Shown here one piece after another: positions 11,388-13,969 of a DNA stretch of 40,872 nucleotides. Position 1 is the first letter of the stretch; each line of letters opens with the position of its first letter. The DNA is taken from the NCBI GenBank assembly GCA_017462015.1, contig JAFTRX010000057.1, forward strand, positions 1-40,872, in the 5' to 3' direction. A model generated the notes under the pieces. The model was not told the origin of the DNA and did no database searches. It worked only from the letters and a program-made list of their open reading frames with translations. The position numbers were made by a program, and so were the translations under genes. Source of the stretch: Lentisphaeria bacterium (GTDB lineage: Bacteria > Verrucomicrobiota > Lentisphaeria > Victivallales > Victivallaceae).

Positions 11388-11557
11388 GAACGCAGTGTCA
11401 CTGGTTGCGCGGCGCATGGCGCACGCGCGTTTTGCTTGCGCAAAACAAAATCTGACAAAATCACTTTTTCAAGATTCAATTTTCTTCCGCTGAAGAAATT
11501 GAAAAACAAACTTTTTTCTGATTTTATGAGATATCTGTGATTTTTTCAGCAAACATC

Positions 11558-11585
11558 TTGACAAAATGATTTTTTGAGCTATATT
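11558..11585 (+). promoter_or_regulatory. Promoter of the aroF-pheA leader
   Basis: A consensus TTGACA (11558-11563), 16-bp spacer and TATATT (11580-11585) lie just upstream of the leader peptide. Confidence 0.75.
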
Positions 11586-11618
11586 AAATACAGATTGAAA
11601 AACAAAGGATTCAAAATC

Positions 11619-11699
11619 ATGTCTAAATTTTTCGGCAAGTTTTACGGCTTTAGCTTCTATTACTACTTTAGAGGCGGGGCTTGCCGTGCAATGATTTGA
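11619..11699 (+). CDS. Phe/Tyr-rich leader peptide of the aroF-pheA attenuator
   Basis: A 26-residue open frame, too short for ordinary gene calling, with AAAGGA 9 nt before its ATG. Ten of its residues are aromatic: six Phe and four Tyr, including the run FYYYF at residues 13-17 (11655-11669). It ends in TGA at 11697-11699, about 25 nt before a terminator hairpin and 100 nt before the DAHP synthase start. This is the arrangement of ribosome-stalling leader peptides such as PheL and TrpL: scarce charged tRNA-Phe or tRNA-Tyr would stall the ribosome at FYYYF. The peptide itself has no expected function. Confidence 0.87.
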   Translation: MSKFFGKFYGFSFYYYFRGGACRAMI

Positions 11700-11761
11700 A
11701 TACCATTTAAATTTTGGCAGCAAGCTCCGTAACGAAAATAAACGTTGCGGAGTTTTTTTTT
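11634..11761 (+). promoter_or_regulatory. Transcription attenuator of aroF-pheA
   Basis: All four classical segments can be paired by eye. Segment 1 GGCAAG (11634-11639) pairs with CTTGCC (11680-11685) as the 1:2 pause hairpin. Segment 2 GGGGCTTGC (11676-11684) pairs with segment 3 GCAAGCTCC (11720-11728) with one G-U, forming the antiterminator. Segments 3:4 form the terminator CTCCGTAACG (11725-11734) with CGTTGCGGAG (11743-11752), followed by nine T. The 2:3 helix occupies CTCC of the terminator stem, so the two are mutually exclusive. A ribosome stalled at FYYYF leaves segment 2 largely free; one at the TGA covers part of it, favouring termination. Confidence 0.85.
11725..11761 (+). terminator. 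Attenuator terminator upstream of aroF
   Basis: A 10-bp stem with one T-G pair, 8-nt loop AAAATAAA and a run of nine T, lying between the leader peptide and aroF rather than after a gene. Confidence 0.88.
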
Positions 11762-11799
11762 AAACAAATACTATAACTATAAAATACAGGTACGGAAAA

Positions 11800-12804
11800 A
11801 TGATCATCATTTTGAAAGACAACGTCGATCAGCGCCAACTTGACGCGCTGAAAAAGTGGGTGGAAAGTCAGAATGTCTGCGTCCACCAGAGTCAGGGAAC
11901 TCAATCCACCATCCTCGGACTGGTCGGAGATACCGTCCACATCGATATCGACATGATCAAACAGCTCGAAATCGTGGAAGATGTCCGCCGTATTCAGGAA
12001 CCGTTCAAAAGCGCCAACCGCAAATTTCATCCGCTTGATACTGTTATCGATGTCCGCAACCGCAAAATCGGCGACGGCAATCTCTGCATTATCGCCGGTC
12101 CCTGCTCTATCGAAAGTGAAGAGCAGATCATGACCGTCGCCGCCAGTGTCAAAAAATCCGGTGCTGCCATGCTGCGCGGCGGTGCATTCAAACCGCGCAC
12201 CTCCCCTTACAGCTTCCAGGGTATGCGCGATGAAGGTATCAAACTGCTCCTTCAGGCCGGTAAAGCCAACGACCTCCCGGTGGTCACGGAGATCATGGAC
12301 ATTTCCCAGCTCGATCTCTTTGCTGAAGTCGATGTCATTCAGGTCGGCGCCCGCAACATGCAGAACTTTGAACTGCTCAAGCAGCTCGGCCACAGCAAAC
12401 AGCCGATTCTGCTCAAACGCGGACTGTGCGCCACCTATCAGGAACTTTTGATGAGCGCGGAATATATCATGGCCAACGGCAATGACAATGTGATTTTGTG
12501 TGAGCGCGGTGTCCGTACCTTTGAAACCTACACCCGCAACACACTGGATATCGCAATGATCCCGGCTATGAAGGAGCTTTCCCATCTTCCCGTCATCATC
12601 GACCCCAGCCACGCCGCCGGCATGGCCCGTTTCGTGGCTCCGCTTTCGCGCGCCGCTGTTGCCGCCGGAACTGATGGCCTTATCATCGAAGTCCATAACG
12701 ATCCCGCCCGCGCCCGCTGTGACGGTCCGCAATCACTCACGATGGAGGCATTCGCCTCGCTGATGACTGAACTGGATTCACTTCACAAGTTGCTTCACAA
12801 ATAA
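11800..12804 (+). CDS. aroF: 3-deoxy-7-phosphoheptulonate (DAHP) synthase, type I-beta
   Basis: A 334-residue DAHP synthase that condenses phosphoenolpyruvate and erythrose 4-phosphate, the first step of the shikimate pathway. An N-terminal ferredoxin-like regulatory domain (about residues 1-70) identifies the I-beta subtype known from Thermotoga and Bacillus relatives, where this domain mediates feedback inhibition by aromatic amino acids. Barrel motifs: IIAGPCSIESEEQI, RGGAFKPRTSPYSFQG, KRGLCATYQELLMSAEYIM, ILCERGVRTFE and VIIDPSHAAG. AGG lies 9 nt upstream of the ATG. It is the first structural gene behind the attenuator and is followed after 25 bp by pheA. Confidence 0.95.
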   Translation: MIIILKDNVDQRQLDALKKWVESQNVCVHQSQGTQSTILGLVGDTVHIDIDMIKQLEIVEDVRRIQEPFKSANRKFHPLDTVIDVRNRKIGDGNLCIIAGPCSIESEEQIMTVAASVKKSGAAMLRGGAFKPRTSPYSFQGMRDEGIKLLLQAGKANDLPVVTEIMDISQLDLFAEVDVIQVGARNMQNFELLKQLGHSKQPILLKRGLCATYQELLMSAEYIMANGNDNVILCERGVRTFETYTRNTLDIAMIPAMKELSHLPVIIDPSHAAGMARFVAPLSRAAVAAGTDGLIIEVHNDPARARCDGPQSLTMEAFASLMTELDSLHKLLHK

Positions 12805-12829: not shown

Positions 12830-13969
12830 ATGAGTATCGAAGATTGCCGCAACACCATTGATAATATCGACAGTAAAATACTGGAACTTTTCCACCAGCG
12901 TATGGATGTCGTTACCGAAATTGCCCGGTTGAAAAAAGCAACCCACACCTCAGTTCTCAACCGCAAACGGGAACGCGAGATCCTCCACCGCGTCTTCAAC
13001 AACAGCAAAGACGGTCTGGGAAAATATTCTGTCAATTTGTTCACCACGCTGATGGAACTCTCCCGCGCTTACCAGCGGGAACAGAACTCCCCCGATCGCG
13101 GCATGCGCGATGAACTCGATGCCATTCGCAACCGTACCCCCGAAAAATTCCCGGAAAGCGCAGTCGTCGCCTGCATGGGAATGGAAGGAACTTACGGTCA
13201 AATCGCCTGCGACAAACTCTTCAAAGTCGCCGACATCATGTATTTCAAAAACTTCGCCGGTGTCTGCCGTGCGGTTGCTGACGGCTTGTGCGAATACGGT
13301 GTTTTGCCGGTAGACAACACCACCAGCGGAACGGTGGACGGCGTTTACGAACTCATGCAGTCCGGCAACTTCAACATTGTCCGCAGCATAAATTTGCAGA
13401 TTTCCAGCGTCCTCCTTGCCAAGCGCGGCACAAAACTTTCTGACATCAAGGAAATCTATTCCCATCCCCAGCCGTTCAAACAGTGTTCTGAATTCATCAA
13501 AACCCTCAAGGACGTGAAACTCACTTTCACTGAAAGCACCGCCACTGCCGCCGCCATGGTCGCCGACAGTGACCGCCGCGACATTGCCGCTATTGCTTCG
13601 CGCAACTGCCGTGACCTCTGCGATCTGGATATCATCTCCACCGACATCCAGAACAGCGATTACAACTACACCCGTTTTGTCTGTATCTCCAAAGAACCGA
13701 AAATCTTCCCCGGTGCCAGCAAGATCAGCCTCATCGCCGTTCTTGCCCACCAGCCCGGTGCGTTGAACTCGGTTCTGTCCAAATTTTCCGCCCTCGGTCT
13801 TAACATGACCAAGCTGGAAAGCCGTCCCATCCCCGGACGTAAGTTTGAATACATGTTCTACTTCGACTTCGATGCTTCCGTTGCCGATCCCGGAATCGCG
13901 GAACTCCTTGGCGAACTGCGCAACGAATCCGAAAAATTCATGTTCTTGGGAAATTATTCCGAACTTTGA
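12830..13969 (+). CDS. pheA: Bifunctional chorismate mutase / prephenate dehydratase (P-protein)
   Basis: A 379-residue P-protein making phenylpyruvate from chorismate for Phe synthesis. Residues about 1-85 are an AroQ-type chorismate mutase (IDNIDSKILELFHQRMDVV, KKATHTSVLNRKREREIL). Residues about 105-285 are prephenate dehydratase (MEGTYGQIACDKLF, GVLPVDNTTSGTVDGVYELM, and the TRF catalytic motif in DYNYTRFVCIS). Residues about 292-375 are an ACT domain with PGALNSVL and KLESRPIPGRKFEYMFYFDFD; the GAL and ESRP motifs are the Phe-binding sites, so allosteric inhibition by Phe is expected. Co-transcribed with aroF and therefore under the leader attenuator. Confidence 0.96.
   Translation: MSIEDCRNTIDNIDSKILELFHQRMDVVTEIARLKKATHTSVLNRKREREILHRVFNNSKDGLGKYSVNLFTTLMELSRAYQREQNSPDRGMRDELDAIRNRTPEKFPESAVVACMGMEGTYGQIACDKLFKVADIMYFKNFAGVCRAVADGLCEYGVLPVDNTTSGTVDGVYELMQSGNFNIVRSINLQISSVLLAKRGTKLSDIKEIYSHPQPFKQCSEFIKTLKDVKLTFTESTATAAAMVADSDRRDIAAIASRNCRDLCDLDIISTDIQNSDYNYTRFVCISKEPKIFPGASKISLIAVLAHQPGALNSVLSKFSALGLNMTKLESRPIPGRKFEYMFYFDFDASVADPGIAELLGELRNESEKFMFLGNYSEL

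Follow-up and report, generated by a model that had tools for sequence, protein, structure and literature searches.

Upstream of an aroF-pheA gene pair in a Lentisphaeria bacterium lies a short open reading frame rich in phenylalanine and tyrosine codons, followed by a terminator-like hairpin. This raises the question whether the two genes are controlled by a ribosome that translates a leader peptide, and which of the two amino acids such a ribosome would sense. An earlier note on the window (the whole stretch of DNA that was analysed, 40,872 nucleotides) had proposed a complete ribosome-dependent attenuator at this position. Based on the reading frames and terminators of related genomes and on the covariation of mutually exclusive helices, the leader is very probably a classical ribosome-mediated transcription attenuator.

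Parts of the leader and the genes behind it

All parts of the proposed element are collected in Table 1. The promoter, the 26-residue leader with six Phe and four Tyr, its FYYYF stretch and the terminator with nine T were found base by base as the earlier note had described them. The 1:2 hairpin was also recovered, comprising an outer helix which encloses the inner hairpin. The antiterminator exists as well, but instead of the claimed 9 bp it comprises 11 pairs (11674-11684 : 11720-11730), two of them G-U. Similarly, the four bases which it was said to take from the terminator stem (CTCC) form only the core of the overlap, since nine bases are shared with the terminator 5' arm as drawn here.

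Table 1. Positions of the leader elements and of the two following genes in the window.
Feature	Positions	Strand	Basis
Sigma-70-type promoter, TTGACA-16 nt-TATATT	11558..11585	+	11/12 consensus matches; consensus only
Shine-Dalgarno AAGGA of the leader frame	11605..11609	+	read from sequence
Leader peptide gene, 26 codons + stop (ATG 11619, stop 11697-11699), MSKFFGKFYGFSFYYYFRGGACRAMI	11619..11699	+	similar frames in relatives
Segment 1 (outer), CGGCAAG, pairs with CTTGCCG 11680-11686	11633..11639	+	fold and pair counts
Inner hairpin of the 1:2 structure over the FYYYF codons	11653..11675 (11653-11659 : 11669-11675)	+	fold and pair counts
Codons 13-17, Phe-Tyr-Tyr-Tyr-Phe	11655..11669	+	simulated stall at codons 13-15 frees segment 2
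Segment 2	11674..11686 (11674-11684 for 2:3; 11680-11686 for 1:2)	+	folds and pair counts
Segment 3, antiterminator 3' arm, overlapping the terminator 5' arm	11720..11730	+	fold and pair counts
Intrinsic terminator (predicted)	11722..11761; arms 11722-11734 / 11743-11755; nine T 11753-11761	+	terminator scan
aroF: type I-beta DAHP synthase with N-terminal ferredoxin-like domain	11800..12804	+	PRK08673, TIGR01361 over cut-off; PF18152 + PF00793
pheA: P-protein, chorismate mutase + prephenate dehydratase + C-terminal ACT	12830..13969	+	domain matches

The assignment of the genes to a type I-beta DAHP synthase and a P-protein was borne out by domain and family matches. The aroF product contains both the DAHP_synth_1 domain and the N-terminal ferredoxin-like domain which define the type I-beta enzyme, while the ACT match of the pheA product (23.2 bits) lies under Pfam's value of 27. 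Only 25 bases separate the two genes. Upstream of the promoter, about 40 bases at 11500-11540 belong to a dispersed repeat, for which 39 other copies with 74-98% identity were observed in the same genome (40 of 104 candidates scored), several of them about 100-370 bases from contig starts.

Neither the promoter nor the terminator is strong evidence when taken alone, since the scan counts lie near the shuffled expectation, with 2 promoter-like sites compared to 1.1 in shuffles and 1 terminator-like site compared to 0.8. The predicted frame is rich in codons for the products of the operon (10 of 26 residues are F or Y), and the predicted terminator precedes the first structural gene. At least 10 F/Y in 25 residues would be expected with P = 5e-5 at the F+Y frequency of four window proteins, a value uncorrected for the number of short frames. 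The fold of the whole leader RNA (z = -4.0) and that of the stretch exposed by a stalled ribosome (z = -5.1) were each reached by 0 of 200 shuffles. On its own, the 1:2 region gives a weak signal (z = -1.9), with 9 of 200 shuffles folding equally well. Whether the leader exceeds chance is settled by the comparative data, namely the survey of frames and the covariation.

Conservation and covariation among relatives

A DAHP synthase search (E up to 1e-40) gave matches in 113 of 198 related genomes. Among the 145 matches listed, 90 were read in two sets (30 + 60), the remaining 55 being mostly below 50% identity or fragments, and 88 were counted, since L129 and L175 offered too little upstream DNA; L001 is a repeat of the window. 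From named contigs, the best 80 of at least 595 loci were taken, of which 72 were counted after leaving out six repeats of already-read contigs and two loci with less than 200 bases upstream (L054, L108). A leader was scored if the 320 bases upstream contained an ATG frame 12-60 codons long in which at least 6 of 12 residues were aromatic, with a terminator-like hairpin nearby; pheA was regarded as adjoining within 250 bases of aroF.

Frame and terminator were present in 23 of the 27 relatives in which aroF is followed by pheA (window included), so that the retention for which the earlier note had suggested to look was confirmed. Relatives without adjoining pheA carried both in 22 of 61 cases and the frame only in 6 more. 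For the named contigs, mostly from Clostridia, the corresponding numbers were 49 of 72 and 3 more. At control gene starts from the same loci and the window, both were found in 1 of 658 cases and the frame alone in 5 of 658; these starts are imperfect controls, many being preceded by coding DNA, and the single match sits inside the coding sequence of pheA. Since 23 of 27 aroF-pheA loci carry frame and terminator compared to 1 of 658 controls, the leader cannot be attributed to chance. Three of the four misses beside pheA (L017, L141, L162) showed a weaker or TTG-started aromatic frame with a terminator, while for L124 no leader was detected and nothing was found upstream. A second aroF clade without leader was observed in the genus (L122, L124, L138, L140, L148, L152, L155); among these seven, only the aroF of L124 is followed by pheA. 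Across the relatives, the sequence of the leader peptide diverges strongly, while its aromatic content is retained.

The pairing of the helices was followed in two alignments, one of 14 genus-level leaders (A1) and one of the 6 leaders closest to the window, window included (A2). The rows were hand-picked for alignability and the letter shuffles ignore kinship, which has to be kept in mind for the following counts. In A1, 90.5% of the cells were paired for 1:2, 94.0% for 2:3 and 91.6% for 3:4, compared to at most 59.2% in slid controls. Two-sided changes were observed at 3, 4 and 5 pairs, respectively. Such pair numbers were reached by shuffled letters in 1 of 500 cases for 2:3, in 15 of 500 for 3:4 and in 64 of 500 for 1:2, the last being not unusual. 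Counting the cells changed on both sides, shuffles were as good in 4 of 500 cases for 1:2, 1 of 500 for 2:3 and 0 of 500 for 3:4.

In A2, the 2:3 helix was paired in 97.0% and the 1:2 helix in 86.9% of the cells (slid controls at most 51.2%), each with 3 two-sided pairs. For 2:3, shuffles reached the number of pairs in 86 of 500 and the number of cells in 1 of 500 cases; for 1:2 the values were 153 of 500 and 4 of 500. The terminator was paired in 96.7% of the cells and showed no two-sided change among these six leaders. Covariation, for which the earlier note had suggested to test 2:3 and 3:4, thus holds for all three helices in the 14 leaders, and among the closest six for 1:2 and 2:3 but not for the terminator. 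A comparison of L009 with L011 showed one G-to-A / C-to-T change running through segments 1, 2 and 3, which fits the prediction of a three-way switch. An A-C mispair in the 1:2 helix of L010 at the same position counts against the model. Altogether, the antiterminator and the terminator exclude each other and are conserved with compensatory changes, and a 1:2 protector hairpin is present, although in the window it is weak on its own. These helices, together with the frames and terminators of the relatives, support the reading as a ribosome-dependent attenuator.

Ribosome position and sensed amino acid

In the full RNA, the combination of 1:2 and 3:4 was favoured over 2:3 (-48.0 compared to -39.3 kcal/mol), the former value originating from a run in which the inner 1:2 hairpin and 3:4 were constrained and the resulting fold included the outer 1:2 helix. 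Without segment 4, 2:3 was favoured (-33.5). Accordingly, the outcome would be set by the position of the ribosome at the time when segment 3 emerges. In a simulation which assumed that the ribosome covers 13 bases, counted from the first base of the A-site codon, upstream RNA occupied about 9 of the 13 bases of the terminator 5' arm as long as the A site was at codons 9-15. This number dropped to 6.0 at Y16, 2.9 at F17 and 0.2 at G19, and pairing came partly back with the ribosome near the stop codon (about 3 of 13). Since 9.4 of 13 arm bases were held without any ribosome, protection by the 1:2 hairpin requires that it folds first, while transcription is still under way. Both this value and the partial return of pairing count against the model.

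The analysis was extended to 162 loci, of which 89 possess frame and terminator (41 class relatives and 48 named contigs). Among the class relatives, the duplex of segments 2 and 3 was better than shuffled segments at p < 0.05 in 25 of 41 cases (Fisher 4e-25); among the named contigs this held for 6 of 48 (Fisher 0.001). A whole-fold statistic, the share of the arm held by upstream RNA, reached the same level in only 3 of 41 class relatives (Fisher 0.009), where it hardly tells real from shuffled sequence, and in 10 of 48 named contigs (Fisher 1e-8). The distance between the last aromatic codon and the codon where the antiterminator is lost is at most two codons for 25 of the 41 class relatives; in the named set the largest class is +5 (9 of 48). 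Both are hand counts without shuffled control.

From this arrangement we infer the following course of events. RNA polymerase would start at the promoter, with a ribosome translating the 26-codon leader frame behind it. When the cell is short of charged tRNA-Phe, and possibly of tRNA-Tyr, the ribosome would stall at the FYYYF codons and disrupt the 1:2 hairpin, so that segment 2 is freed. Pairing of 2:3 would then precede the synthesis of segment 4, no terminator would form, and aroF and pheA would be transcribed together. With ample charged tRNAs, the ribosome would reach the stop codon and mask segment 2, or depart, whereupon 1:2 would re-form. In both cases segment 2 would be unavailable, 3:4 would pair and transcription would stop in the T run.

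The earlier note had suggested that Tyr is sensed as well as Phe. In leaders before aroF-pheA, the aromatic cluster contained Phe in 26 of 26 cases, Tyr in 24 of 26 (best 12 residues) and Trp in 2 of 26; the values for leaders without adjoining pheA were 26, 27 and 5 of 27, both sets including some frames that fall short of the survey rule. The mean of F minus Y was +1.5 before aroF-pheA (n = 26) compared to -0.4 without pheA (n = 27), with p = 0.004 uncorrected for kinship. Sensing of Phe is likely, and sensing of Tyr is plausible as judged from the codons.

Another explanation would be that the same attenuator senses phenylalanine only and the Tyr codons are tolerated, to which we assign somewhat less than an even chance. 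The ubiquity of Phe and the greater Phe bias beside pheA would agree with this. A further parallel is the aroR-aroF attenuator of Corynebacterium glutamicum, reportedly described by Neshat et al. in 2014. According to a paper that cites this work, its leader holds Phe-Tyr-Phe and responds to Phe, while the operon is unaffected by the availability of Tyr (PMC11802643). On the other hand, the window possesses three consecutive Tyr codons at the position where stalling is predicted by the simulation to release segment 2, and Tyr occurs in 24 of the 26 clusters before aroF-pheA. In addition, PMC2659441 lists a proposal of Tyr-sensing attenuation at aroF, with reference to a 1980 E. coli paper.

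Two further readings of the leader as a whole were set aside. The frame could encode a functional small hydrophobic peptide to whose gene the terminator belongs, and frame and terminator are indeed accompanied by a ribosome-binding site; this is highly improbable, as the peptide varies strongly in relatives while the aromatic content stays, the compensatory changes lie in helices that extend across both coding and non-coding sequence, and the peptide has no Pfam match. It is just as improbable that the terminator is governed by a leader which binds a metabolite or a tRNA, the frame being there by coincidence: T-boxes serve many such genes in Firmicutes (PMC1262725, PMC2965389), but neither the window nor any of 15 named loci gave an Rfam match at gathering score, and the aromatic codons are conserved across relatives. 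With E up to 10, 12 sub-threshold matches were obtained for 11540-11810, none of them an amino-acid leader or a T-box.

Known systems, further leaders and spread

The enterobacterial pheA attenuator uses alternative helices. Its leader pheL, which we take to be the Rfam family Phe_leader, gave no covariance-model match at gathering score in the window. Like the attenuator described here, the enterobacterial system places a Phe-rich leader and a terminator upstream of the P-protein gene (PMC11802643). Unlike it, the window belongs to another phylum, combines aroF with pheA and contains many Tyr codons. The statement of the earlier note that Phe attenuation is known mainly from enterobacterial pheA was too narrow, as attenuation before a DAHP synthase gene is also described for C. 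glutamicum aroR-aroF (PMC11802643; prediction in PMC4046766) and proposed for Acholeplasma aroF (PMC8632094).

C. glutamicum aroR-aroF shares with the window a Phe/Tyr leader peptide before a DAHP synthase gene and an increase of transcription upon stalling, which is proposed here. It is set apart by its origin from an actinobacterium, its Phe-Tyr-Phe sequence and the missing effect of Tyr, while the operon in the window adds a P-protein gene and a longer aromatic run (PMC11802643). The motif uORFC-13-1 resembles the window, by its description, in a uORF with Phe codon(s) and a terminator directly upstream of aroF, and attenuation has been proposed for it. In contrast to the leader of the window, its 24 described representatives all come from Acholeplasma or unassigned environmental sequence (PMC8632094). 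A Leu-rich leader in Staphylococcus is reportedly a later case of attenuation (PMC5794164). In agreement with the earlier note, no description of leader-peptide attenuation in Lentisphaerota was found in the literature searched, most subscription journals lying outside the search. The type of attenuator is classical; here it is conserved in Lentisphaerota, apparently as part of a wider set of aroF leaders.

Leaders of a similar kind were observed at other genes. In the same genome, trpE (L179 about 1210-1400, C104) is preceded by a Trp frame, MKTTLCKIIFLSKAWRWR, and two tandem terminator-like hairpins, and the same arrangement was found upstream of trpE in L187, L188, L189 and L191. In the genus, trpE was found in only 7 of the 34 genomes searched, and in 5 of these 7 a frame with at least two Trp precedes it (the other two were not judged). 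Three leuA loci passed the cut-off, and two of them, the reverse strand of L183 at about 1206-1410 and, in similar form, L194, show a 48-codon Leu/Ile-rich frame with terminator (the third was not judged). In the L183 leader, the in-frame GGCGGCAGA can pair by eye with TCTGCCGCC of the terminator arm. The upstream regions of L190, L192 and L193 were left out, since the longest frame in each locus is another gene. For hisG, no match was obtained in the same genome (G000, rated 92.8% complete), which together with the sparse trpE perhaps reflects a patchy amino-acid prototrophy. A search for an rRNA methyltransferase family in this genome yielded nothing of use.

A DAHP synthase tree of 154 rows was calculated by a quick method, with 49 of 151 inner branches open and some labels set by eye. 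In this tree, leader-bearing rows from Lentisphaerota and Bacillota are intermingled, together with one planctomycete row, while the leaderless copies of Lentisphaerota cluster in a small number of clades (32 rows and 8 changes, compared to a mean of 29.3 after shuffling). This pattern can be explained by an old association with losses or by co-transfer of the leader with the gene, since both would yield it. Frame and terminator also occur in named isolates, among them Yanshouia hominis, Aminicella lysinilytica, Angelakisella massiliensis and Emergencia sp., although the named contigs are mostly metagenome bins and their titles may be wrong. Clostridial leaders (e.g. L039, L050, L078, L107) showed a recurrent AAEYFYF-like peptide start and a GKA-type tail. 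A TGCTG segment which could base-pair with the arm of the terminator is often present as well. These leaders possibly represent a second architecture of the same switch.

The spread of aromatic leaders at aroF is unexpectedly wide, with similar frames in many Clostridia. We consider the chances about even that the aromatic attenuator is an old or mobile companion of one aroF subfamily in Lentisphaerota, Clostridia and Planctomycetota, with codons tuned to the operon (Phe-biased beside pheA, otherwise with more Tyr and sometimes Trp) and with losses in the leaderless clades, and that Lentisphaerota use such attenuators generally (aroF-pheA, trpE, leuA). Since the leaders are numerous and divergent, it can be asked which of Phe, Tyr and Trp each of them reads, and their composition could be compared with the enzymes of the operons to see whether the former tracks the latter.
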